A DNA stretch of 64,000 nt from Arenicola marina. Lineage: Eukaryota; Annelida; Polychaeta; Arenicolidae. Position 1 is the first letter of the stretch, and each line of letters opens with the position of its first letter. The translations under genes and the position numbers were made by a program. The notes under the pieces are model-generated. The model ran no database searches. It was given only the letters and a program-made list of their open reading frames with translations, and had not been told where the DNA came from. Location: contig OZ025258.1 in the NCBI GenBank assembly GCA_964019135.1, positions 12,183,771 through 12,247,770 on the forward strand. The letters run 5' to 3'. This document shows, in pieces, positions 10,590-64,000 of this stretch.

Positions 10590-13500
10590 ATGTTCGGACA
10601 GGTTGGAATCCTTGTGCTTTGCGCCATTTTACCCCTTTTTAAAGGGGAGGTGGTTAAAGGCGTAGTGCCTTTGAATTCCGGAACGTTTGATAAGGTAAGA
10701 GATCACATCTGGGTAGAAAGTTATAGCTTCATGTGTTTGTAATCGCTTCATGACCAGAAACGTCAACACCACCAGTTGGGCAGTTCTGTTACCGTAAATT
10801 CACGCATGTAAGACGATAGGATGAAACTATATTAGTACATAGCCTGAAAGTTCAGACGTTACACAGTCTTAACACTTGTTCTTGTGACAAACTGTAACGT
10901 CTGAACATTCAGGCTAATTAGTACATAGACATCATACGCACAATCACAGCGACAGTAAGTCAGTGCCAGTGGAGGGATGGGTGCACTGGTGCATATATAC
11001 GGACCATGTATACAACCACAGGAACCCCAGGTTCGTGACTCAACTATTTTATGAAAAAACATTGGATGGATTTGTACTGTTGGATTTGTTTTGGTCTGGC
11101 TGTTTAGTTCCTTCTCTCTCTTTTGGACTTTCATGTCAACCTCCCCTCCCTTCCACCCCCTCTTGCGCTTCAGGGACCTGTAAGTGTAATTGAATGCATA
11201 TTGCATACATGACATGTGATTTGTTGTTGCAACACTCTCCCTCCCCCACCCCTCCCCCCTGTTCCTACCTCTATTGAGTTACTTATATGCACAAAACTGA
11301 TAATCATAGATACCTCTTATTTTAATATAGTTGCATCTTTAGGGCCCCTGAAGGGGGTAGCCATTTTGCATATAAATTTTAAGTAGAAGTCCATGTTGAT
11401 TGTCGCTAAATGTAAAGCTGTATTGATACTGTCCTTAAATCATTTCCTTGTCTCCTCCATATTTGTATATACCGTAAACTGCCTATTTGAAGCCGCAGCT
11501 TACATTAGGAAGTTGGAGGTTCAACTTTCTGGGTTTGAGTCGCAAGTCAGGGTACAGCTTTAACTAGGGCCTTTTGTCGATTTCAAGTGAGCGTGGCGAG
11601 ACAAGCGGGGGGGGCAATACGAAACTTGATACTGGGTAGGTATGACAGTGATTCATAAACATGCAGTAAGAGCCAGGAGAGCAAGCCAATGGGGTGACAC
11701 TTGATAAGAGCTGCGATCAGAGAGGGAGAGGTGAATGTTGTTAGTAGTTGTGACTGCTTGTATAAGCAATTAATTAAGCAGGGATTTCAAGGGGGGGGGG
11801 GGGTCGAGAGGCCAAAGTCCGGGTGCGGCTTATAATATGTAGTTTTCTGGAAATGGTTCTGGGTGCCTGCCAACCCGGTTTTAAGGCCAAAGTTGGGGTG
11901 CAGCTTCTAATATTTATGCGGCCTCAAATAGGCAGTTTACGGTACATTTTAAACTATTGAAGCTAACTGCATAATTCGCTGTTTAAACTTGGAATACCAA
12001 AATTCTTTCCATCAGCTAAATAAATATTGTACTGTATATTATATAACAGTTTCTCTGCTTGGTGAAGTTTTATCCGTATATAAATATTTCAACTTATTTA
12101 AATTATTGTGATGAAGTTTTATCTATATATAAGTATTTCAACTTATTTAAATTATTGAAAAAGCAAGTCCTGCATTATATCAGATAATGATAATGTTAAT
12201 ATTTTAAATAATAAGTAATCACACGTATAAATCATTTGAAAATTGATACAAAATATAATTGATCTATAATTATATTATAAAATCTATCTGTCTTATTTAA
12301 TATTGACTTGATAACATTTATTTATTATGATATTGTGGCTTCTCTAGCTCATCCCCAGATTTAAGGCAACACTGGTGAAATTTGACGAGATGTATCCATA
12401 TGGTGACAAACATGATGAATTCAAGAAGGTAGCTGAAGCAGCTATTGGCCAGCCAGACTTGCTTATTGGTGAAGTTAATGTTGCTGGTGAGTACTGCATT
12501 TTGCATTAATTTTCATATACAAATCATTAATAATAAAGGTATATATTAATAATGCTTTCTCAAATATATTTTATACCTTAAATGTAATTGAGGTCTAATT
12601 TCATATATGAACTTTTGTATTGTGTATTTATTGTATTAGATTTCTGATAAATAGGGTCTAATTATAGTAATATAACATAGTCATACATTATATCACAAAT
12701 GTTCATGTATTACATGTAATTACTTTCAGCATGAAAACTAATTGATATATTTCCTCATGATCATGACTGGTTTTTTTCAGATTATGGGGAAAAAGATAAT
12801 TCAGATCTAAGTGATAGATTTGGATTGAGTAAAGACGATTTTCCAGCAATAAAGATATTTGTTGAGGGCAAGGAGAACCCTGTAGCTTTCAAAGGAGATC
12901 TTAAAAATGCAGATGAGATTAAACAATTTATCATGAAAGAATCAGGTATATGAAGTGAAAAGTTACAACTGGTTGAAAGTATATTTTTCTGTGTAAAACC
13001 ATGATATTTCAGTGTATCAGTGCAACTCTGGTAGTCCTTCCTTTTTTATGTATCATATTTTAAAATTTGTTTATTCGCTTTGATGGAGGATGATAAGAAT
13101 GTAAACACCAAGATGACACTATCAGAGTTGTTCTGTCATTGACATAATGGTTGTTTTGCACAGAATGACACGGGTTGGCTGAATATTGGTTCCTGCTTCT
13201 GCCTTAATTAGGGTAATGAATTGCTTATTATTTCCATTCTATGTAGCTTTTTAGGGTGATGTTTAACCTTTATCATTCCCCAACCATTAAGCTTTTTTTT
13301 CCTATTGCACTGATATAGATTATGGCAAGAAGGATAACATGGACTTGCAGAATCGGTTTGGTGTAAAAATTGCGGACTATCCAGTGTATAAGCTGTTCTT
13401 ACAAGGAAAATCATTGCAAGAACCAATAGACTACACAGGCGACAAAAGCCATGAAGACCTCAAGTTATTTGTGGTCAACGAAGGAGGTACTGTAGCTACA

Positions 13501-16500: not shown

Positions 16501-17265
16501 TTACTTAAGTTCTTGACTGATTTCCGGGACTGATAATGTCTAACTCAAGCTTCTTGCATGTTGGTTCATATACAGAACTTTTATGTACTATTATATGGCA
16601 AGTAACTTGATGTACACGTTTCCAGTTATGCAGCTGTGATGTTATTTAACATATCATTTTATATGGTAATCAAAATGTTTGAAATCTGATAATCAATGTC
16701 ATTTTACTATTAAGATTATCTTAAATATTTTAAACATCAATATTATATTATAAAGATTCAGTGGCGTGTACGTAATTATTAATATTTATAAGTTTAATGT
16801 AACTACATTTCATCAACTTGGTAAGTACATTTAATGTAATTATATTTCATCAACTTGGTAAGTACATTTAATGTCATTATATTTCATCAACTTGGTAAAT
16901 GCATTGTTTTGGCGCTACTTCTTCACCATGCAGGGTTGTGGTTGGGATTGCCGGCGTGTATAGAGGAATTCGACGTTCTGGTCCAGCGATTCTTCAAGGC
17001 TTCCGGCGACGACCGGAAGGCTGTGATAGCGGAAGCGGAAACAGCGGCCGCGGCCATCACGGACGAGACGGAGCAGGAACGCGCCACTATATACATCAAA
17101 ACGATGCAGAAGGTGCTGGAGAAGGGCGACGACTTCGTCGAGACGGAACTCACCCGTGTCGATAAATTGAGTGAGGGAAAACTGAGCGAGAAGAAGAAAA
17201 ATCAACTCAAAGATAGAGCCAGCATTTTGACTTCCATGAGGTTGCGCCTGAGAGATGAACTGTAG
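10590..17265 (+). CDS. ERP29: ERp29-like endoplasmic reticulum chaperone with three alternative exons
   Basis: ERp29 is an ER-lumen, redox-inactive PDI-family chaperone (Windbeutel in flies). Common exons: 10590-10694 (signal peptide MFGQVGILVLCAILPLFKG then mature start), 12348-12486 (first half of the thioredoxin-like domain, VKFDEMYPYGDKHDEFKK) and 16934-17265 (all-helical D domain, ending RLRDEL, an ER-retention tetrapeptide of the KDEL type). Between them lie three homologous phase 1-1 exons, A 12781-12945, B 13319-13486 and C 15569-15730, each able to complete the domain. One-exon isoforms would be 246 (A), 247 (B) or 245 (C) residues, close to the usual 250-260. There is no CxxC, as in vertebrate ERp29; the conserved Cys of the D-domain entry is present (LPACIEEFD). 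All junctions are GT-AG and in phase. The gene is head-to-head with TBCCD1 and converges with calpain. Confidence 0.92.
10849..10917. mobile_element. Hairpin (foldback) element with TAGCCTGAA ends, short copy
   Basis: tagcctgaaagttcagacgt facing acgtctgaacattcaggcta, a stem of about 25-28 bp with a short loop, in ERp29 intron 1. Confidence 0.75.
11470..11944. mobile_element. Inverted-repeat element in ERp29 intron 1
   Basis: 475 bp with terminal inverted repeats taccgtaaactgcctatttg and caaatAGGCAGTTTACGGTA-type, extending into gccgca/tgcggc. The interior has related accaaagt/gggtgcggctt segments. No coding capacity. Confidence 0.85.
12058..12166 (+). repeat. About 55-bp tandem duplication
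   Basis: gtgaagttttatc, then atttcaacttatttaaatta, occurs twice in ERp29 intron 1. Confidence 0.85.
12781..12945 (+). CDS. ERP29: ERp29 alternative exon A (second half of thioredoxin-like domain)
   Basis: 165 nt, phase 1 to 1, with a strong acceptor (tttttttcag) and donor (cag|gtatat). It begins DYGEKDNSDLSDRFGL and continues through FPAIKIFVEGK, the strand-helix half of the ERp29 thioredoxin-like fold. The DYG(E/D)K start matches the family consensus that abuts the substrate-binding surface. Homologous to exons B and C over its full length. Confidence 0.88.
13319..13486 (+). CDS. ERP29: ERp29 alternative exon B
   Basis: 168 nt, phase 1 to 1, acceptor tgatatag, donor gag|gtactg. It reads DYGKKDNMDLQNRFGV, then YPVYKLFLQGKSLQEPIDY. 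The NM-L core and the YPV segment look closest to the vertebrate consensus I remember. It lies 373 bp after exon A. Including both A and B would keep the frame but duplicate half a domain, so mutually exclusive use is the likely arrangement; that is inference. Confidence 0.88.
14505..14615 (+). repeat. Direct repeat, left copy (partner 14995-15105)
   Basis: Shares tcagccatgcgtcat-agacgtc, a cat/aagctctc-gccgcca segment and atatgccttgt with a second copy about 490 bp downstream, both in the ERp29 intron between exons B and C. Could be short long-terminal-repeat-like ends or a simple duplication. Confidence 0.6.
14625..14722 (+). mobile_element. Possible tRNA-derived fragment (box B only)
   Basis: cctgggttcgaatcccggtt forms a good T-arm, followed by an acceptor-like taggcacc, but no box A or anticodon arm precedes it. 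In the ERp29 intron between exons B and C. Confidence 0.4.
14827..14938 (+). repeat. 16-bp tandem repeat (7 units)
   Basis: Unit tgtccacaccgttctg repeated seven times, nearly perfect (one t-to-a change), in the ERp29 intron between alternative exons B and C. Confidence 0.95.
15569..15730 (+). CDS. ERP29: ERp29 alternative exon C (diverged)
   Basis: 162 nt, phase 1 to 1, acceptor gtatttcag, donor ctg|gtaggc. It retains IADRFGIEKEHLPSIKLFLP and the DELKKFIAMEA helix but has lost the DYG(E/K)KDN start, replaced by EHSGGDGRQ. It is open throughout, with intact splice sites, so it looks functional rather than a decayed copy. The changed entry could alter client binding. It sits 2.1 kb after exon B, behind a repeat-rich stretch. 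Confidence 0.8.
16795..16905 (+). repeat. 46-bp tandem repeat before the last ERp29 exon
   Basis: Three units of a ttcatcaacttggtaagtac-containing sequence. Two carry a consensus donor-like ttg|gtaagt. Located just upstream of the acceptor at 16933. Confidence 0.85.
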
Positions 17266-51347: not shown

Positions 51348-54300
51348 ATGAGGATCTTGGTTGTCCTTCTTGTTGCACTTTGCCTCCGGGCTTCAGGTAT
51401 GGATGCTTGTTTATTTGTAATGAAGTATGGGTTAGACATGTCTACACGCTAAGGCATATCCGCACTGGTATGGATGCTTGTTTATTTGTAATGAAGTATG
51501 AGTTAGACATGTCTACACGCTAGGGCATATCCGCACTCGTATGGATGCTTGTTTATTTGTAATGAAGTATGGGATTTTTGTGTATAGTGCAATGCCTTAT
51601 TGCAAAGTTCTGCGGCTGCCTATGCGGGCTTCAGGCAATGCATCTTAGTGGCAAGAATCGATCATTTCTGCACCAAAATCAGGACATAAAACATAACAAT
51701 AGTAGAGCGGCAAGTTTGAATGGCTTAATTCACACGATGCAATACGTTGTACATTTCATTGAAAGAAATTTTTCGACCAACTCTGCAACTGGAGGGCCGG
51801 TTTTCCACGCATTGTAAGCTTTCGCTAGATGTTCTAAAGTTTCTATCAACTTCACGATTTGGGAATTGTCATCCAATGACAATTGCATTATGACAATGAT
51901 GAATGTATCTGTGGCTTGTATGCATGACGTTATAAGTGCTAACGCCCACTGGACGCGTTTTTGCGGCGCGGCGACGGAACGGACGCGGCGCGGAAAAATA
52001 GGACAGTTGAGTTGCGCTTGGCTAGCGCCCACTGCACGCGTCAGCGGAACGGCACAGGCGCGGTGCCGTCGCGGTACCGTCGAGGCCCCGCGGTGAGATA
52101 GGACTTGTTCTATTTTTCGGTCGTCGGTCGGCGCGCCGTAGACATTTCAGCTAATCAGAAAAAGGAATGAAATTCAGCGCGATGCACATTCTCCAACCTA
52201 GCGGCAAAAGTCTCTGTTTCGGGTACGCGCGAAAGTTGGTGGAGACGTGATACCAGATCCAGCAACTCCTGAAACTGCACTGGTGTCAATCTGAAGTAAA
52301 TTTAGGTCCGAAACCTCTTATCGTTTGCAATTTTTAGCTCCTGTATGAGCCTGTGTATTCTCCCAGCGCCAGTCTTCTTTGAAGAGTGCGATGAATCAAA
52401 TACCTCTTCCTTCTGCGACGTCTTTACGCTGCTAACAGCATGAGTGCGTCCTCATCAGAAAAATCTTTCCTTTATTTAAACATGCCGCTAATATCTAAAA
52501 ATAGCCTAAGCCGTTAATTCAGACAGCTGCCATACGGTCACTCACCGCGCGACCACCGCGACCGAACCGCGCCGCCTTGGTTCCGTCGCCGCGTCACGCA
52601 GTTCCGTCACCGCGCCGCGAACGCGTCCAGTGGGCGTCAGCACTAACGACTGTTGAAGGAATCGTCGTACCGTGTAAACCCGGCATTAATCGTGTCTTTG
52701 ACCTTGAACTTGAACAGATGCCTACGGTAAGCACCGCGAGAGATGGAACAACTATCTCAACAATCACGCTGACGATGACTCGGATGTCGATGACACAGAT
52801 GAAGCCACAAGCTGGGAGTTTGACGTCGATGAGAACACCATGGCTGATGGCGGAGCGGCCGACGCCGCCGTGACGGACCTCATCAACGCCGTAAGCAATG
52901 GAGACCGTAAGTGCCCGTCTACTCATTCGTGTGTTAGGACCCAAAACGTCACAGTGACGAAAACGTCAGACCACACGGCCTGTGGCGTCTAGGAGCAATT
53001 AATGTACAGTTCAGGGGCGGATCTAGGAATTTCAACAGGGGGGGGGGGGTTCTCTGTAACCTTGCGACCTGTGTGGGGAGGTGGGAGGTTTACAATGAAT
53101 GTTCAAGGTCCCAAGGGCCCGCCAGGCCCGCCCCCTGCAATTTCAAACTGTGCCTGGATCGCCTTTTCTATTGACGGCGGCAATGAATATATATGCGGCA
53201 GTAAGTCTTCCGTCTCAGATATATGCTTTGATAAACGTTGGACTATGGGGTATTGCCCCCGCCCTCCCCTGGGTCCCCCTAGGAATCTCCCACCTCTAGA
53301 AACCTTACAATTCCTTATTTTCTGGCGCCTTAACCGCGTACTACCATCTATAAGAGGTTGCTAATTGTCTATCAATCACTTCTTTAGCCCCAAGTGACCC
53401 CGCCCCGTCACGTTCAGAAACGTCACACGGGCTTGTGTGAGCGATAACCGGGATGGTTGAAGTCAAACTTCAAACTTCTCATTCTACCCAGGTCTGACGT
53501 ATTCGTCACTTTAACGGTTTGGGGTTCTAACATACATGTACTGCACGTGACATTATATGTGTGACTTCCAAAGTTCCCATTGCAAAAAGCCATAGTTCCC
53601 GCCTGTAGGCCTATAACACATCCTACCTTACATTTCAGATTTAACAAACTGTAATGCGCATCAAATGTAATGATAAAAACTGTGCTGGTAAGAGTTCAAA
53701 GCTATATGTGAACTACGTACGTCAGAGATGTACGCCCTTGGATAGTCGACTATACTTAATTAGTGATTAATTGAACGGTTTTAGGGATGGCGTACGTATA
53801 AGCCAGACAATAACAAAAGAATAGATTTATAATACATTAACGCCCATCCATTGTTACAGTAATTATAGACATGGCCAGCAATAACCAGCAAGTGCGCATC
53901 GCGTGATATCTTAATTTTCTTCAAGGTATAAATTAAAAAAACAATAACATAGTTAAAGACAAATTAAAAACCGACAACATAGTTTGCCCAAGAAAGTGAC
54001 GTTCGCAATAGATAAATATTGTATGATGATTTTGTACTTGTTGTGGCTTACAGTGAATGCGGTTCAGCTGTTGGGTGGATGTTGGGGAAGGTGGAAGCAT
54101 TACCTCAAGGAACACATCTGCGATTTGAACCGTAAGTCGATCAATCTATTTACTCTTATTTTTAATCGCCGCCCAATCCCATTCGCTGCGCATGCGCATA
54201 CGTCAGCTGGACACTTTATCACGGCGGACTGGTTATCGTGCTCCAATAACGGACAAAACTAAATTTGGTTCGTCGAATGCACTTTGGTATGGACGAAAAT

Positions 54301-57300
54301 GACTTCGGTTCATCGCATGTACTTTGGTATCGACGAACGTAACTTTGGCTCGTTGAAGGCCGTTTGGGGGGGACAGACTTCTATTTAGTTTACCGAATAA
54401 ACGAACGGCCACAACACACTTATATGTCGTCGACTTTCCAGTCTTTAGCTTCAATGAAATGCACCGGCAAATAAGCAGCGGATCAATTTATCCCTTTATC
54501 ATTCTGCTCATTGTGCTCTGCGCCTCCCGGACCGTCATGCAGTGGAGTTGGACTCTATCACCGACGAGGACATCGCGGCCTACGACCAGCATGGTAATAA
54601 CACATGTCTGAGTGAGCGATATCTAAAAATAATCGATCTTTAATGATGGCCTATACACTGAACAATGGTCCACATGGACCGCCGTTTAAAAATGACAATC
54701 ATTTAATGATGTTTTTATTTTATATAATAATAATAATTTTGTGTAATATTTACCACTTTAGTCCGTTTTTCGTACTGGTCGACATTTAGCCGTACTTTTA
54801 TTTTACGTAAACCTTTGCATGTTGATCAATAGATATATGAAACGAATAATAAATAACATGGATCGTGGACGATATGAAGTTAAAGGAACGCATAAACCTG
54901 GAAATTATCCGCGATTCCAATTTGGCAAAAGAGGATTTGCCAGCAATTTGTAATCCCGATCGTTATAACGCCCCACCCCCCCCCCCCCGAGCTACAAAAA
55001 CTCGGAAATTATCCATATAAGCAGAGGAGGTTTGCTAATCCGCAATCCTAATCCGAGTCGTTGTAAAGCGCACCCCCCCCCCCGCCATTCCGCCAACTCC
55101 CCAGCTCTTGGATTGTCCATTGGTCAGAGGCTAATGCATCAACATTGCGGCTCTGCTTCTAAGATGCGTCCAGCAGGAAGTTTATGAGGCGCTTCTGGAG
55201 GCGACTGTTCCGGCGCCTTCGTCGGCTGAGGAGCAAACACTGTCCCGGTGAGTTAATAGAAGCACTGTCCCGGTGAGTTAATAGAAGCACTGTCCCGGTG
55301 AGTTAATAGAAGCACTGTCCCGGTGAGTTAATAGAAGCACTGTCCCGGTGAGTTAATAGAAGCACTGTCCCGGTGAGTTAATAGAAGCACTCTCCCGGTG
55401 AATTAATTGAAGCACTGGGCCGGTGAGGTAATAGAAGCACTGTCCCGGTGAGTTACTAGAAGCACTGTCCCGATGAATTAATAGAAGCACTGTCCCGGTG
55501 AGTTAATAGAAGCACTGTCCCGGTGAGTTAATAGAAGCACTGTCCCGGTGAGTTAATAGAAGCACTGTCCCGGTGAGTTAATAGAAGCACTGTCCCGGTG
55601 AGTTAATAGAAGCACTGTCCCGGTGAGTTAATAGAAGCACTGTCCCGGTGAGTTAATAGAAGCACTGTCCCGGTGAGTTAATAGAAGCACTGTCCCGGTG
55701 AGTTAATAGCAGCACTGTGCCGGTGAGTTAAAAGAAGCACTGTGCCGGTGAGTTAAAAGAAGCACTGTCCCGGTGAGTTAATAGAAGCACTGTTCCGGTG
55801 AGTTAATAGAAGCACTGTTCCGGTGAGTTAATAGAAGGACTGTTCCGGTGAGTTAATAGAAGCACTGTTCCGGTGAGTTAATAGAAGCACTGTTCCGGTG
55901 AGTTAATAGAAGCACTGTTCCGGTGAGTGAATAGAAGCACTGTTCCGGTGAGTGAATAGAAGCACTGTCCCGGTGAGTGAATAGAAGCACTGTTCCGGTG
56001 AGTGAATAGAAGCACTGTCCCGGTGAGTGAATAGAAGCACTGTCCCGGTGAGTGAATAGAAGCACTGTCCCGGTGAGTGAATAGAAGCACTGTTCCGGTG
56101 AGTTAATAGAAGCACTGTTCCGGTGAGTTAATAGAAGCACTGTTCCGGTGAGTTAATAGAAGCACTGTTCCGGTGAGTTAATAGAAGCACTGTTCCGGTG
56201 AGTTAATAGAAGCACTGTTCCGGTGAGTGAATAGAAGCACTGTTCCGGTGAGTGAATAGAAGCACTGTTCCGGTGAGTGAATAGAAGCACTGTCCCGGTG
56301 AGTGAATAGAAGCACTGTCCCGGTGAGTGAATAGAAGCACTGTCCCGGTGAGTGAATAGAAGCACTGTCCCGGTGAGTGAATAGAAGCACTGTCCCGGTG
56401 AGTGAATAGAAGCACTGTCCCGGTGAGTGAATAGAAGCACTGTCCCGGTGAGTGAATAGAAGCACTGTCCCGGTGAGTTAGAAGAAGCACTGTCTCGGTG
56501 AGTGAATAGAAGCACTGTCCCGGTGAGTGAATAGAAGCACTGTCCCGGTGAGTGAATAGAAGCACTGTCCCGGTGAGTGAATAGAAGCACTGTCCCGGTG
56601 AGTGAATAGAAGCACTGTCCCGGTGAGTGAATAGAAGCACTGTCCCGGTGAGTGAATAGAAGCACTGTCCCGGTGAGTGAATAGAAGCACTGTCCCGGTG
56701 AGTGAATAGAAGCACTGTCCCGGTGAGTGAATAGAAGCACTGTCCCGGTGAGTGAATAGAAGCACTGTCCCGGTGAGTGAATAGAAGCACTGTCCCGGTG
56801 AGTGAATAGAAGCACTGTCCCGGTGAGTGAATAGAAGCACTGTCCCGGTGAGTGAATAGAAGCACTGTCCCGGTGAGTGAATAGAAGCACTGTCCCGGTG
56901 AGTGAATAGAAGCACTGTCCCGGTGAGTGAATAGAAGCACTGTCCCGGTGAGTGAATAGAAGCACTGTCCCGGTGAGTGAATAGACGCACTGTCCCGGTG
57001 AGTGAATAGACGCACTGTCCCGGTGAGTGAATAGAAGCACTGTCCCGGTGAGTGAATAGAAGCACTGTCCCGGTGAGTGAATAGAAGCACTGTCCCGGAG
57101 AGTGAATAGACGCACTGTCCCGGTGAGTGAATAGAAGCACTGTCCCGGTGAGTGAATAGAAGCACTGTCCCGGTGAGTGAATAGAAGCACTGTCCCGGTG
57201 AGTGAATAGAAGCACTGTCCCGGTGAGTGAATAGAAGCACTGTCCCGGTGAGTGAATAGAAGCACTGTCCCGGTGAGTGAATAGAAGCACTGTCCCGGTG

Positions 57301-60300
57301 AGTGAATAGAAGCACTGTCCCGGTGAGTGAATAGAAGCACTGTCCCGGTGAGTGAATAGAAGCACTGTCCCGGTGAGTGAATAGAAGCACTGTCCCGGTG
57401 AGTGAATAGAAGCACTGTCCCGGTGAGTGAATAGAAGCACTGTCCCGGTGAGTGAATAGAAGCACTGTCCCGGTGAGTGAATAGAAGCACTGTCCCGGTG
57501 AGTGAATAGAAGCACTGTCCCGGTGAGTGAATAGAAGCACTGTCCCGGTGAGTGAATAGAAGCACTGTCCCGGTGAGTGAATAGAAGCACTGTCCCGGTG
57601 AGTGAATAGAAGCACTGTCCCGGTGAGTGAATAGAAGCACTGTCCCGGTGAGTGAATAGAAGCACTGTCCCGGTGAGTGAATAGAAGCACTGTCCCGGTG
57701 AGTGAATAGAAGCACTGTCCCGGTGAGTGAATAGAAGCACTGTCCCGGTGAGTGAATAGAAGCACTGTCCCGGTGAGTGAATAGAAGCACTGTCCCGGTG
57801 AGTGAATAGACGCACTGTCCCGGTGAGTGAATAGACGCACTGTCCCGGTGAGTGAATAGAAGCACTGTCCCGGTGAGTGAATAGAAGCACTGTCCCGGTG
57901 AGTGAATAGAAGCACTGTCCCGGTGAGTGAATAGAAGCACTGTCCCGGTGAGTGAATAGAAGCACTGTCCCGGTGAGTGAATAGAAGCACTGTCCCGGTG
58001 AGTGAATAGAAGCACTGTCCCGGTGAGTGAATAGAAGCACTGTCCCGGTGAGTGAATAGAAGCACTGTCCCGGTGAGTGAATAGAAGCACTGTCCCGGTG
58101 AGTGAATAGAAGCACTGTCCCGGTGAGTGAATAGAAGCACTGTCCCGGTGAGTGAATAGAAGCACTGTCCCGGTGAGTGAATAGAAGCACTGTCCCGGTG
58201 AGTGAATAGAAGCACTGTCCCGGTGAGTGAATAGAAGCACTGTCCCGGTGAGTGAATAGAAGCACTGTCCCGGTGAGTGAATAGAAGCACTGTCCCGGTG
58301 AGTGAATAGAAGCACTGTCCCGGTGAGTGAATAGAAGCACTGTCCCGGTGAGTGAATAGAAGCACTGTCCCGGTGAGTGAATAGAAGCACTGTCCCGGTG
58401 AGTGAATAGAAGCACTGTCCCGGTGAGTGAATAGAAGCACTGTCCCGGTGAGTGAATAGAAGCACTGTCCCGGTGAGTGAATAGAAGCACTGTCCCGGTG
58501 AGTGAATAGAAGCACTGTCCCGGTGAGTGAATAGAAGCACTGTCCCGGTGAGTGAATAGAAGCACTGTCCCGGTGAGTGAATAGAAGCACTGTCCCGGTG
58601 AGTGAATAGAAGCACTGTCCCGGTGAGTGAATAGAAGCACTGTCCCGGTGAGTGAATAGAAGCACTGTCCCGGTGAGTGAATAGAAGCACTGTCCCGGTG
58701 AGTGAATAGAAGCACTGTCCCGGTGAGTGAATAGAAGCACTGTCCCGGTGAGTGAATAGAAGCACTGTCCCGGTGAGTGAATAGAAGCACTGTCCCGGTG
58801 AGTGAATAGAAGCACTGTCCCGGTGAGTGAATAGAAGCACTGTCCCGGTGAGTGAATAGAAGCACTGTCCCGGTGAGTGAATAGAAGCACTGTCCCGGTG
58901 AGTGAATAGAAGCACTGTCCCGGTGAGTGAATAGAAGCACTGTCCCGGTGAGTGAATAGAAGCACTGTCCCGGTGAGTGAATAGAAGCACTGTCCCGGTG
59001 AGTGAATAGACGCACTGTCCCGGTGAGTGAATAGACGCACTGTCCCGGTGAGTGAATAGACGCACTGTCCCGGTGAGTGAATAGACGCACTGTCCCGGTG
59101 AGTGAATAGACGCACTGTCCCGGTGAGTGAATAGACGCACTGTCCCGGTGAGTGAATAGAAGCACTGTCCCGGTGAGTGAATAGAAGCACTGTCCCGGTG
59201 AGTGAATAGAAGCACTGTCCCGGTGAGTGAATAGAAGCACTGTCCCGGTGAGTGAATAGAAGCACTGTCCCGGTGAGTGAATAGAAGCACTGTCCCGGTG
59301 AGTGAATAGAAGCACTGTCCCGGTGAGTGAATAGAAGCACTGTCCCGGTGAGTGAATAGAAGCACTGTCCCGGTGAGTGAATAGAAGCACTGTCCCGGTG
59401 AGTGAATAGAAGCACTGTCCCGGTGAGTGAATAGAAGCACTGTCCCGGTGAGTGAATAGAAGCACTGTCCCGGTGAGTGAATAGAAGCATTGACCTGGTG
59501 AATTAACTAAAACGCGTTAATTGAAACATATGCCTTTTCCCACTACCGTAACGGTGGGATAAGGTGCTCGTGTGACGTTATTGTTTGGTTCACATTTAAC
59601 TTTGTTATTGAAGATAAACAAATACGAATGTGTTTCAATAGCAGCTTACGGCTTTTACTTCGTGAAAACGCATACATCAAAATGCCAAAACTGAGGCCCG
59701 GCCTGTTTCTTTCTGGGGTCATTGTATATTTTGGAAATCATCATGTCACAAACTGGACATGCGGGCTTTGATGTTGTACAGTAATCTGTACCGTTCTTGT
59801 AGCGCGTCTTCTGTCTGCAAACCAACTATTTTATTTTGTTGTATGGGAATAACGTCGCCTTGGTTGAAACTTATTTATCTTATCTATTCAAATAACGACG
59901 TTGTCCACAACAGAACCCGACACAACGACTCCGGCACCGCCGACTACACCCACACCCACACGTAGGTTCCGCTGAAACTGATCTTCATGGGAATGAAGGT
60001 GGGGAATACCTTTTCCGGTCTCCGCGATTGGCATCCAGGAATTCTTGGAGATTCGCGATTAGCTGTTGGCAATTTATGGAGATTGTTATCGGCACGATTG
60101 CCCCTCCCCCCCCCCCCTCCCCCCCCCGGTAATGGTACAAATTGTCTAGAGTTGTCTAGAGTTGTCAGATGGCCTGAATTTTGCATTGAAAAACGGCATT
60201 CCTCCACCTTCCAGAAAAGGGTGGGTCTCTAGCTGGACCGCCCCCCCCCCCCCCATGGATCCGCCCTTGCATTACATATACTGTGGTAAATATAATGACG

Positions 60301-63030
60301 GCATGAGGAAATATAAAAAAAAAAAATGTATCTAATCTTTATTTATTATCAATTTGTCTTTCGTTTCGAAAATTTCATACAATCCCTGCAATATGACCAT
60401 CTACATAACTGTTGCAGCGGAGAACACGGCGTGCGAAAGCGAACCGTGTAATGGAGGTACCTGCGAACCAGTGGGAGCCACTGACTTCAGCTGCACCTCC
60501 TGCCCACCGTTATACGAGGGCCCGTTGTGCGACATTGTAGGTATGTAATACAAAAAGCTTCGCTTGCAATGACTATGGTATTAAAACCCTAATATTTGGT
60601 GGGACGAGAGGTTTCGTGCGTCTGGCATGCGTGGCAGGTTTAAATATGGCGCCAACAAATTGGCGTATCGATGTGTCTAAAAGTGTAAATATTTTTGGAT
60701 TTTCTTTTTTGGCAAAATTCTATGCGTTCATTTCTTGATTCCTTTCATTCAGCGTGCCCCTGCCTGAATGGCGGCTTCTGTGGTTTCATCATGCCGCCAG
60801 CATTCTCCTGCGTTTGCACCGCAGAGTTCGACGGGCTTCTTTGTGAAGAAGGTGAGACAAACGGCATCTGTTTGGCTAGTTTCATCACGTCAACGCTCCA
60901 CGAGAGCCCAGTCAAAGAGTGTAGTGCAGGTCTTATATTAGCCAAATTTGCCCAGTTAGCTGCACAACATGTTAACTCCGCGAGAAAAAAAATTCAGCAT
61001 GGCGCACCGGTCTATAAAATAATAATTGTGCGTTACTGTAACATGCATTGGTCGTATAATAATTGTCAATTATATATACGGCATATAATAATTGTCAATT
61101 ATTTATACGGCATATAATAATTGTCAATTATATATACGGCATAGAATAATTGTCAATTATATATACGGCATATAATAATTGTCAATTATATATACGGCAT
61201 ATAATTAATTACATATACGGTATATAATTAATTACATATACGATATATAATTAATGACATATACGGTAAATAATTAATGACATATACGGTAAATAATTAA
61301 TTACATATACGGTATATAATTAATTACATATACGGTACATAATTAATTACATATACGGTACATAATTAGTTACATATACGGTATATAATTAGTTACATAT
61401 ACGGTATATATTTAGTTACATATACGGTACATAATTACTTATACGGTATATATACAAGCTCGTTTGTGATATTGGTGTATTAAAATAGTTGTGATTCTGG
61501 TGTAAGTGAGGGAAAAAAAACGGAACGGTGGATTGAGAAAATACAATTAAAGGTATTGTGGTATGGTATAGTTATAGATAAATCCAACAGTAAAGAAATA
61601 TACGAAAGCACATAGTAGACTCAATTTGAGAATAGGAAACTATTATATGCTCGGCATATAAGCCAATTTAGAATGTTTCACTAACATGGAGTGACGGATC
61701 TTGGTCGTTGCAGCGGCCGAAAGCCCCTGCATGTCCGATATATGTGCCAATGGAGGCACATGTACGACGACCGAAGTAGGAGGTTTCACCTGCGCCTGCA
61801 CCAGCGAGTGGACTGGAGCGCAGTGCAACATTCCAGGTATACCCGGTGTCATTAAATCATGCCTTACTTAATTATCACTTAATGCCACGGGCTACATTCT
61901 ACCACTGTATAATTTGACTCCCACGGGCTAAATTCTACCACTGTATAATTTGACTCAAACGGAAAAAATGTCTACGCCGGTTTCAATCTAAGGGAGGGTG
62001 GTCGACCTCATTGCGGGTGGGCGTACTTTCTTTCCAGATCGAATATTAGGTGATATATAACTAGTAGATCAGGAAGCATGTACAGTAAAACCTCTCTAAG
62101 TCGACCGACGCAGGGACTGCTGCTCATCGATCGACTTAATTAAGGAGGTGATCGGGTTACAGAATATCAACATATCAATATCAGCATGGACTTAATGCCT
62201 TACTCGTGGCAAAAAACCCCCACAAAATGTGTGTATTCTAACAGGAGAGAGTTTTGTGATCAAGATCATCAAAGATCACGCCGTTCGCGGCTTGTATCGC
62301 CCGATTGTATGTATTCTAAAGGTATCAAGTTTTGTGATCAAGATTATCAAAGCTACAATGCATATACTCTAACAACCTGTAACAACTCACACACAGCTAT
62401 CCCACATTTCATATTGTTATCTAGTCCACAAAGTGCATAGGCGTTATCGCCTGAGTGTGCGTGCGTGTTCTACTAATTGCAATCAGCAGGTGGCACTAAT
62501 CCTTCCAAGTCTGTAGTGTGTGGACCTCCAGCCGACCACCGGTCGACTTTGGGAATGTGAAATGGGTTAGGTTATCGGGCTATAGAATACTGTTGCAATA
62601 CTAAGGCATAGGCCGACCGTCGGGACCAGAAAAATCGGTCGAGTTTGGGAGTGGATAGGGTTAGGGAGATGGTCGGGCAGGGAGGTTTTACTGTATTATA
62701 CACTTATTATATGAAAGCGATTGTTATCGGTCTGCTTCAGTTGGGACGGGAGATTACTAGACTATTAGTTTGCAGGTTTGATTTTTTGTGTGCCATATTA
62801 GTACACTTATTGTGTGTGTGTGTGGTGGGGAAGGGGGGGGGGCATCACAATGTGGTATCGCTTTGTACTTTTATTTAAATAACGTTTCTTTTATGAGATT
62901 CATGATATTGTTGTAACGAATTTAACGAATTTAAGTATTTTTTACTTAAATTATGGTTTTCGAAGTATTTTGGAAACAGATATAATTACAGATATTAAAT
63001 GTTTAATGTTTGCACTCTGCAGCCGTGTAA
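51348..63030 (+). CDS. Secreted protein: acidic segment, cationic helix, Pro/Thr linker, three EGF-like domains
   Basis: Ten coding exons: 51348-51396, 52718-52906, 54054-54131, 54543-54593, 55164-55247, 59914-59961, 60418-60540, 60753-60851, 61714-61836, 63023-63030. Every intron is phase 1 with AG/GT borders, and the total is 852 nt (283 residues plus stop). Signal peptide MRILVVLLVALCLRAS; an Asp/Glu-rich exon (ADDDSDVDDTDE); a Cys/Trp-bearing exon (LLGGCWGRWKHYLKEHIC); a short acidic exon; an arginine-rich helix exon; a Pro/Thr linker; EGF-like units with CNGGTC, CLNGGFC and CANGGTC; then Ala-Val-stop. The third exon could be a small disulphide loop. I do not recognise the whole protein. 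A TATA box and an AATAAA at 63135 bracket it. No transmembrane segment is seen, so secretion is inferred. Confidence 0.85.
51397..51572 (+). repeat. 71-bp tandem repeat starting exactly at the exon 1 donor of the EGF gene
   Basis: Two full units and a partial third begin at 51397, 51468 and 51539, each starting gtatggatgcttgtttattt. The first unit start is the splice donor of exon 1 (cttcag|gtatgg). The repeated copies are preceded by gcactg or gcactc rather than by exon sequence. Confidence 0.9.
51938..52643. mobile_element. GC-rich inverted-repeat DNA element in EGF-gene intron 1
   Basis: Inverted ends based on gcccactggacgcg and gcggcgcggcgacggaac, with several subterminal repeats of the gcgacggaac type at both ends. 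About 700 bp, far GC-richer at its ends than its surroundings, ending 74 bp before exon 2. No transposase seen. Confidence 0.8.
52933..53531 (+). mobile_element. Small DNA transposon (family B), copy 3, with a nested insertion
   Basis: Begins gttaggacccaaaacgtcac just after EGF-gene exon 2 and ends ggggttctaac. Same interior as copy 2 (gcgataaccgggatggttga). Another short element starting caggggcggatctagg is inserted at about 53013-53138. Confidence 0.85.
53013..53138 (+). mobile_element. GGGGCGGATC-type element nested in family B copy 3
   Basis: Starts caggggcggatctaggaatt with a G-run and ctctgtaaccttgcgacc, as in the larger element at 45488-46166. The right end (cccgccccctg) is degenerate. 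Confidence 0.65.
55164..55247 (+). CDS. EGF-gene exon 5: cationic amphipathic helix
   Basis: 84 nt, phase 1 to 1, read in the same frame as its neighbours. The core KFMRRFWRRLFRRLRRLR has paired aromatic/aliphatic residues every three to four positions separated by arginine pairs, a textbook amphipathic helix with about a dozen positive charges and almost no acidic ones. Other frames of the same DNA either stop or do not join in phase. The 3' end (cactgtcccg|gtgagt) is the seed of the minisatellite that follows. Membrane- or heparin-binding, or antimicrobial activity, is possible but not shown. Confidence 0.8.
55237..59490 (+). repeat. 25-bp minisatellite (about 170 units), each unit containing a 5' splice site
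   Basis: Consensus unit: agcactgtcccg followed by gtgagtgaataga. The first part is the last 10-12 bases of exon 5 and the second is its donor and first intron bases, so the array is a tandem amplification of that exon-intron border. Units up to about 55920 and at 56100-56215 carry gtgagttaat; most later ones carry gtgagtgaat. Rare acgcac variants occur in clusters (about 56985-57110, 57810-57840, 59010-59140), showing block duplication. The array fills most of intron 5. Confidence 0.97.
60000..60090 (+). repeat. Dispersed repeat shared with 63490-63580 (inverted)
   Basis: About 90 bp (catccaggaattcttggaga, then cgattagctgttggcaattt) recurs in inverse at 63490-63580. The stretch just after it ends in a G/C-run and ggatccgcccttgc, suggesting part of a GGGGCGGATC-type element. 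Confidence 0.7.
60418..61836 (+). CDS. EGF-gene exons 7-9: three EGF-like domains
   Basis: Exons 60418-60540 (41 codons), 60753-60851 (33) and 61714-61836 (41), one domain per exon, all phase 1-1. Cysteine spacing follows the EGF pattern C-x(4)-CNGGTC-...-C-x-C-...-C, with minor changes: the first has CTSC in place of C-x-C, and the second starts ACPC and is short. No Asp/Asn calcium-binding consensus precedes the domains. Confidence 0.9.
61050..61445 (+). repeat. AT-rich tandem repeats in EGF-gene intron 8
   Basis: About five units of ataataattgtcaattata, then about eleven of a shorter ataattaattacatatacgg unit, showing a switch of repeat type within one array. Confidence 0.92.
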
Positions 63031-63134
63031 GCGACATGGACGGTCGCAGTCGACACAGCTGACTCAGCGGAACCAAAGCAGCTGTGCAGAGACCTGAATA
63101 ATGGACGCACGACATAAGACCTCGGTCGTTTGAG

Positions 63135-63140
63135 AATAAA
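63135..63140 (+). terminator. EGF-gene polyadenylation signal
   Basis: AATAAA 105 bp after the stop codon at 63028-63030, followed by a T/G-containing stretch (actgtttgcttctgtc) suitable for cleavage. Confidence 0.75.
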
Positions 63141-63699
63141 AGCAAATTGAAAACAAATTTACTGTTTGCTTCTGTCATTCTATGCCCTGTAAAAAGTATT
63201 GCCCTTTATATATTGCCTCGCAGATGGAGGAGTCCTAAGAAACGAGGCTAGTTCCGTATTTTGTTATATCGAGATCCCGTGAGATAGATGGGTGGGTAGG
63301 AATCGGAATCGCGAATCCCCAACAATTAGGAAGAGCCATATCGAATCTACACGATGAGGACTGTTCAAGACCGGGCGCGAAAAAAAACTCCTTAACAGTG
63401 ATATCGCGAATATCGAGGGATTCAGACTGTTATAACGGATCGCGGTAAATAGGGTCTTCGCGTTGACCCAGGAATTGTACGGATAACGATCCCGCAAAAT
63501 TGCCAACAGCTAATCACGAATCTACAAGAATTCCTGGATGGCAATCCCGGAGATCGGAAATAGTATTCCTCCCCTCATGATATTATCAGACATATTAAAA
63601 ATATACTTTCGGACCTATGTTGTCCAAACCAGCCCTCCTGGCTGTACTTAGATCGAATATTCTTTTCGGAACTACGTTTACCTCACCTTTCCTCAGTGG

Positions 63700-63824
63700 G
63701 CGGCCGGCCCGATAGCTCAGTGGGTTAGAGCGCTCGCTCTGGGACATTGCTCCACTCTCCTTTCCTTCTCCGATTGACGCGATATGACCAAAAGTGGTTA
63801 AAGCGTCCAGAATATACAACCTTT
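63700..63824 (+). mobile_element. SINE family 1, internally deleted copy
   Basis: The head (gcccgatagctcagtgggtt, a perfect box A) is joined to the distal body and tail (tggttaaagcgtccagaata). It faces an inverted copy a few bases downstream. Confidence 0.85.
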
Positions 63825-63827
63825 CCT

Positions 63828-63976
63828 GAGTGGGAGAGTGGAGCCATGTCCCCGGGGGTAACCACCCTACTCTTTTGCGACGGACATGGAATCTTTATGT
63901 TGCGACCACACGGGCATGACCACATCGATCCACGTGCCGTTAAGCTCTAACCCACTGAGCTATCAGGCCGGCCTCG
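63828..63976 (-). mobile_element. SINE family 1, inverted partner copy
   Basis: Minus-strand head (gcctgatagctcagtgggtt) at 63976, body through gccatgtccccgggggtaac on the plus strand. Tail-to-tail with the preceding copy; together they form an imperfect inverted repeat. Confidence 0.8.
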
Positions 63977-64000
63977 GATCCCGGATGTTTTTGTTTACGG

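Follow-up and report, generated by a model that had tools for sequence, protein, structure and literature searches.

Tandem repeats lying across exon–intron borders have been described in lancelets under the name "mirages", and the accessible portions of the reports place them in Adh3, the globin genes BflGb6 and BflGb9, troponin C and PGBD5 (PMC3087553, PMC3902484). Their units measure 10–72 bp in Adh3 and 150–160 bp in BflGb6, and they are said to leave splicing undisturbed (PMC3087553, PMC3902484). Here we describe what appears to be an array of this kind in a 64,000-nt stretch of the genome of the polychaete Arenicola marina (GCA_964019135.1, contig OZ025258.1, positions 12,183,771 to 12,247,770 of the forward strand; hereafter the window), in which about 170 copies of a 25-bp unit follow exon 5 of a gene encoding EGF domains. 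The initial annotation of this DNA had pointed to amphioxus minisatellites that overlap splice junctions at the Adh locus; these are real and are the structures described as mirages (PMC3087553, PMC3902484).

Two further systems offer partial parallels. Earthworm metallothionein genes carry a first-intron minisatellite with monomers of 178 and 181 bp on average (PMC12783039); this too is an annelid intron minisatellite, although a splice site within the monomer is not mentioned in the accessible part of that report. Internal tandem repeats at exon–intron boundaries, on average about 4 units of 30 bp, are described for human segmental duplications (PMC2812944). These are likewise minisatellites at borders and can alter gene structure, but the accessible part of the report discusses them as a route to new introns and names no long donor arrays (PMC2812944). 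A literature search of limited coverage returned no report of border-spanning arrays in annelids and, as far as the literature searched shows, the structure seems to be of a known kind in a new host phylum.

Tandem Repeats Finder (TRF) reported 170.6 copies of the 25-bp unit with 98% matches and 0% indels, beginning 10 nt inside modelled exon 5 (Table 1). When the units were split in register, the consensus CACTGTCCCGGTGAGTGAATAGAAG accounted for 119 of the 170 full units. Each unit is composed of the end of exon 5, a GTGAGT donor and 9 intron bases: the exon ends in ...CACTGTCCCG followed by GTGAGT, and the unit opens with the last 10 bases of the exon and this donor, 16 bases in all. Both the run of some 170 head-to-tail copies directly after exon 5 and the match of the unit to exon end plus donor had been noted in the initial annotation and were confirmed; its limits of 55237..59490 captured the array and placed its end about 10–20 nt short. 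The motif GGTGAGT is present in 166 of 171 array units, and the GT dinucleotide is kept in 168/170. Scored with a weight matrix, 165 sites in the array equal or exceed the exon 5 donor; outside the array the window has 8 such sites on the + strand and 6 on the − strand, or about 0.1 per kb. The unit was found at one locus only of the one assembly: an exact search of the 867-Mb genome with the 16-mer CACTGTCCCGGTGAGT gave 147 hits, all on a single strand (reversed control, 0) and, because the unit table also sums to 147, every genomic copy sits in this array. No match to the unit was found in viral contigs. On the − strand, open frames over the array reach 1117 aa because the unit has no stops on that strand.

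The EGF-gene array is one of several donor-border arrays in this genome. A whole-genome pattern of three AGGTRAGT in tandem matched 12,772 places, and among the matches listed were four arrays on contig C1, of each of which 0.7–0.8 kb was inspected. Two of the four inspected windows lie wholly inside arrays and are therefore uninformative on the edge; the other two arrays start at an exon end. One of these is an ALDH1L1-like exon (Pfam Aldedh 3.3e-8; PDB 2.2e-25) followed from its end by an array of a 39-bp unit. This array extends over about 6.5 kb of C1 (about 605765–612276, edge in L042) with gaps in the exact pattern, and its unit, a multiple of three, has no stop in the reading frame of the exon over the portion inspected. 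The other is a Cys-rich exon (Lustrin_cystein 2.5e-5, under the cut-off) with a 34-bp-unit array at its end, and the exon before it matches Antistasin (1.3e-9). Twenty stretches of 10 kb at preset round coordinates on contigs C1–C14 (L009–L028) contained eight arrays with a donor-like unit at a score of at least 8. Edges were read for seven of these (that of L020 was left out): two start at exon ends and five have no clear exon. The two belong to an annexin gene (42 bp x31; PDB 4.9e-14; Pfam 1.4e-4, under the cut-off) and to a UBA6-like gene (45 bp x20.9; PDB 4.7e-8; Pfam ThiF 0.015, under the cut-off). For the ALDH1L-, annexin- and UBA6-like genes, translation of the exon-derived bases of the unit yields residues alignable with their protein families, and the exon thus preceded the array in those three genes. 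Amplification of the exon–intron border itself, as proposed earlier, is seen in conserved genes elsewhere in the genome, while at exon 5 of the EGF gene we infer it.

The consequences of using donors 1, 2, 3, 4, 11 and 171 were computed on the gene model of the host. Splicing from the first donor keeps the frame. Donor 2 adds 25 nt, shifts the frame and leads to a stop at coding nt 555, and for the remaining donors computed translation ends at coding nt 477, within the second unit; the expectation that later donors would shift the frame or reach a stop was thus correct for all those computed. On the model, the first, exon-adjacent donor is most likely the one used.

The array is polar. Unit position 17 is T near the exon, G in most of the interior and T again in the decayed far unit and, with T at both edges and G inside, the interior looks younger. 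The exon-side unit is 25/25 like its neighbours, whereas the far unit, which was read by eye past the TRF end to about 59512, is 17/25 identical to the exon-side type. Units 23–34 and 35–46 represent a block of about twelve units that was apparently copied once, inexactly. The polarity is common to the three long arrays examined at both edges (EGF, annexin and UBA6-like). Compared with a typed reference unit, the first unit of the annexin array scores 0.93, inner units 0.86–1.0 and the last (unit 31) 0.76; the corresponding values in the UBA6-like array are 1.0, 0.96–1.0 and 0.89 (unit 21). The sequence beyond the last units scores 0.52 (annexin) and 0.67 (UBA6-like) and may be flank. Judged from these sequences, the interior of the array seems younger, its exon side old yet intact, and its far edge both old and degraded; the first unit may owe its protection to selection on the real exon end and its donor.

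RNA structure was also considered as a means of choosing the first donor. The 25-bp unit is self-complementary (z −3.81), and the predicted openness of the first donor exceeds the mean of G-type units at span 60 (0.011 vs 0.004) and at span 120 (0.0018 vs 0.0004), is level with G-type units at span 200, and is always about 0.011 or less. It is lower than the mean of T-type units, and the other real donors of the gene range from 0.0008 to 0.19. This candidate was dropped, as the predicted advantage is slight and varies with the span.

The EGF-gene array shares several traits with the lancelet mirages as these are described in the accessible reports. Both occur in coding genes next to the genuine border and consist of head-to-tail units that hold an exon end and a splice signal: the annelid array spans a modelled exon–intron border, and its units carry exon sequence together with a splice signal. 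Lancelet clusters show concerted evolution from which the edges are left out (PMC3087553, PMC3902484), and the EGF array fits this trait of a homogenised interior, given its 119 identical units among 170 and its deviating edge units. Unit sizes are 25 and 71 bp in the window and about 34–119 bp elsewhere in the genome. The two systems differ in copy number, since the BflGb6 haplotypes are given as having 3 and 6 copies and the annelid EGF array has 170, and also in the borders affected, which are of both kinds in lancelets but donor borders only in the annelid set sampled.

A further set of exons was chosen independently of repeats. Pfam Myosin_head gave 77 exon pieces, of which the best 40 by E-value were taken, the first 20 with 280 bp on both sides and the next 20 with 130 bp on the donor side only; the exon end was equated with the end of the Pfam match, which is off by some bases at several loci. 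By eye, repeats holding exon plus donor are present at 6 of the 40 donors (L053, L060, L073, L074, L076 and L078), a frequency to be set against the few named lancelet cases. L053 has a 62-bp repeat with 49 exon bases, L060 a unit of 37 bp and L076 one of 42 bp x3.8. Because L073, L074 and L078 hold less than two full copies in the stretch fetched, we regard them as duplications that may be incipient longer arrays. At L070 the match terminates in repetitive sequence and the exon end is ambiguous, and the arrays of L048 and L067 begin at or just past the donor without copying exon plus donor. In L060 the unit on the donor side combines 12 bases of the exon with a GTACGT donor, a C tract and the sequence CACAG, and most units resemble a micro-exon with both splice signals. 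The border copies of L078 carry a GC donor (CAG/GCAAGT, then TAG/GCGAGT). Several of the short Myosin_head exon matches lie in open frames of 377–1760 codons, presumably because stop-free arrays flank them.

At a score threshold of 15, 9/40 donor windows, the six exon-plus-donor cases among them, 0/20 acceptor windows and 0/20 exon interiors of the myosin set were repetitive. Intron windows downstream of the donor gave 4/20, 4/20 and 4/19, and those upstream of the acceptor 1/20, 3/20 and 3/20; in the EGF gene, 2/9 donors and 0/9 acceptors scored as repeated. Donor borders are thus about as repetitive as introns, and acceptor borders are without a repeat in the sample. Donor and acceptor borders differ with P 0.023 when the 9/40 are compared with 0/20, and with P 0.17 when the 6/40 are. 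For the first 20 myosin exons, one set of four introns is repetitive throughout the downstream windows (to +155 nt), and none of these repeats begins farther from the exon than +23 nt (P 0.016 under uniform starts, with limits set post hoc). At a donor score of 8, 11 of 112 arrays had a matching unit (one being the EGF array) against a shuffle mean of 6.5 and maximum of 10 (30 shuffles) and a reversed control of 4; scores of 7, 9 and 10 gave 18, 4 and 2 arrays, within the shuffle range. The triple AGGTRAGT pattern stands at 12,772 vs 5,661 genome matches, apparently dominated by few large arrays, and CAGGTAAGTA x3 at 401 vs 359. On the question, posed by the initial annotation, of whether donor-matching units are commoner than chance, the answer is mixed: the exon-anchored sample has repeats at donor borders and none at acceptor borders, and the motif scans give no clear verdict.

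Based on these observations, we consider it probable that the EGF-gene array is a mirage-type minisatellite, in which a duplicated border was expanded and homogenised, the first donor is used and the rest are silent passengers. A short tandem duplication spanning the exon 5/intron 5 border would have started the array, and growth by slippage or unequal exchange would have been followed by homogenisation. Nearly every copy holds the exon end and a good donor, of which, among those computed, the first alone yields an intact protein; the inner donors would be carried silently in the intron. Selection acting on the real exon end and donor would preserve the unit next to the exon, with decay at the far edge. 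Several points weigh against this reading. Use of the first donor is deduced from frame, and in mammalian extracts the downstream one of two identical donors in competition tends to win, contrary to what this reading requires. The genome search returned no paralog of exon 5 that would reveal its state before the array (its 63 matches comprise 6 to the EGF gene and 57 within its EGF half), and amplification of its border is something we infer. Variant cells in the EGF array are fewer in donor columns (5/1190) than in others (74/3060), which makes the donor the less variable part. Finally, tandem arrays with a period of at least 10 sum to 89,742 of the 200,000 bp in L009–L028 (45%, small overlaps counted twice), and some overlap with borders is therefore expected by chance, a serious rival. 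Two of these 10-kb stretches consist of array from end to end.

This last alternative, that arrays overlap borders in an array-rich genome without any special link to donors, appears to us unlikely but deserving of real weight. It addresses the place of the array at the border, is compatible with the mirage-type explanation, and the likelihoods we attach to the two overlap. The similar repetitiveness of intron and donor windows (4/20 and 9/40) and the motif scans, in which 11 arrays compare with a shuffle maximum of 10, are in keeping with it, but the absence of repeats at acceptor borders and in exon interiors and the clustering of repeat starts close to the donor argue for a link. That the inner donors work, together forming U1 sites with a role in U1 buffering, in preventing premature intronic poly(A) cleavage or in tuning inclusion of exon 5, we regard as improbable. 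The 165 strong sites, the shortage of variant cells in EGF donor columns and the 84-nt length of exon 5, which as a multiple of three can be skipped in frame, would be consistent with such a role. However, all 8 internal exons are multiples of 3, so exon 5 is not special, and the gap in cell counts arises mostly from three columns with variants common to many copies. Distinct variants do not avoid the donor columns: they number 4 in 7 donor columns vs 13 in 18 others in the EGF array (Fisher P 0.76), 6 in 7 vs 29 in 35 in the annexin array and 2 in 7 vs 8 in 38 in the UBA6-like array, with none of the three Fisher tests significant. Variant cells are level in the annexin array (12/210 vs 56/1050) and run in the opposite direction to EGF in the UBA6-like array (6/140 vs 11/760). 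The GT is kept in 27/31 annexin units, four having lost it, and in 21/21 UBA6-like units. As no distinct constraint is apparent in the donor columns of the three arrays, the suggestion that the array acts as a U1 decoy or buffer lacks support, and homogenisation alone can explain the pattern in these columns. Two guessed 5'-end patterns for the U1 gene had no match in the genome.

It is slightly less likely still that the array came first, as a plain intron minisatellite, and that its first unit later supplied exon 5 with a donor and the last 10 bases. In keeping with this order, an older end of exon 5 was seen in no paralog in the genome search, and the bases upstream of the first unit are, by eye, without clear repeat homology; in the ALDH1L-, annexin- and UBA6-like genes, by contrast, the family-aligned residues place the exon first. 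We give very little credence to an assembly artefact or to exon 5 not being an exon. By eye this exon has a weak acceptor, and no homolog of it turned up in the genome search, but the ordered variants, the copied-looking run of about 12 units and the decayed end are unlike an invented repeat, and exon 5 is in phase 1 on both sides. Beyond this locus we propose tentatively, at a little short of an even chance, that 5' splice sites seed minisatellites genome-wide. These would be harmless since the first copy keeps the exon end and donor; the selected first copy would serve as a clean template for repeated regrowth as the far end decays. Roughly one donor in seven (6/40) would carry an array, itself up to hundreds of donors long, and a strict first-donor rule would be needed.

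The host gene was modelled on the + strand by eye from frame, phase and splice signals, as 10 exons between 51348 and 63155 with GT–AG introns, every intron being in phase 1. The model frame encodes 283 aa, in the order signal peptide, acidic stretch, basic stretch (exon 5), Thr/Pro linker and three EGF domains. Pfam EGF matches three stretches (2.2e-11), and the N-terminal half of the model protein has no Pfam match. A second donor array, built of a 71-bp unit, starts from the final base of exon 1 and the donor beside it.

Table 1. Exons of the EGF gene and associated arrays, in window coordinates.
Feature	Position	Strand	Description
Exon 1	51348..51396	+	Signal peptide MRILVVLLVALCLRAS, phase-1 donor G/GTATGG; gene model
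Second donor array, exon 1	51396..51571	+	71-bp unit x2.5, TRF; boundary score 16
Exon 2	52718..52906	+	Gene model
Exon 3	54054..54131	+	Gene model
Exon 4	54543..54593	+	Gene model
Exon 5	55164..55247	+	84 nt, phase 1-1, DASSRKFMRRFWRRLFRRLRRLRSKHCP; last 10 nt = exonic part of repeat unit
25-bp array	55238..59501	+	TRF and unit table; decayed unit extends to about 59512
Intron 5	55248..59913	+	4,666 nt, about nine tenths array
Exon 6	59914..59961	+	Thr/Pro linker EPDTTTPAPPTTPTPT; gene model
Exon 7	60418..60540	+	EGF domain; gene model and Pfam
Exon 8	60753..60851	+	EGF domain; gene model and Pfam
Exon 9	61714..61836	+	EGF domain; gene model and Pfam
Exon 10	63023..63155	+	Stop codon and 3' untranslated region; 3' end placed by eye after AATAAA

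Elsewhere in the window, 3.1 copies of a 37-bp unit at 16793–16905, containing two GTAAGT sites, lie at the end of the last intron of an ERp29-like gene, about 30 nt upstream of that intron's acceptor. Rfam and tRNA (ARAGORN) searches of the window returned nothing; two tRNA-like stretches (GATAGCTCAGTGGGTTAGAGC) were seen by eye as an inverted pair at 63700–63980, where ARAGORN calls no tRNA. The mitochondrial contig (C762, 15,942 bp, of which 4.3 kb was read) has the order nad3, trnS, nad2, cox1, trnN, cox2, trnD, trnY, trnG and then cox3, the start of which was placed by eye; cox1 was identified by Pfam, the remaining proteins were recognised by eye, and TGA was translated as Trp. This order fits cox1-N-cox2 and nad3-S1-nad2, two of six annelid mitochondrial blocks that the accessible part of a published account lists as conserved (PMC2667193). 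The host is therefore most likely an annelid, and amphioxus was rejected; a search for the GFP family gave no match and carries no weight here, since control genomes gave none either.

Whereas the accessible reports name lancelet mirages in few genes (Adh3, globins, troponin C and PGBD5), the annelid arrays occur in several conserved genes and at far higher copy number. With up to 170 near-identical donors behind one exon, they constitute a natural experiment on donor choice. The finding bears on how exon borders seed tandem repeats and on how introns may grow or be gained through duplicated borders, and a border copied some 170 times raises the question of how the cell keeps to the right splice site.

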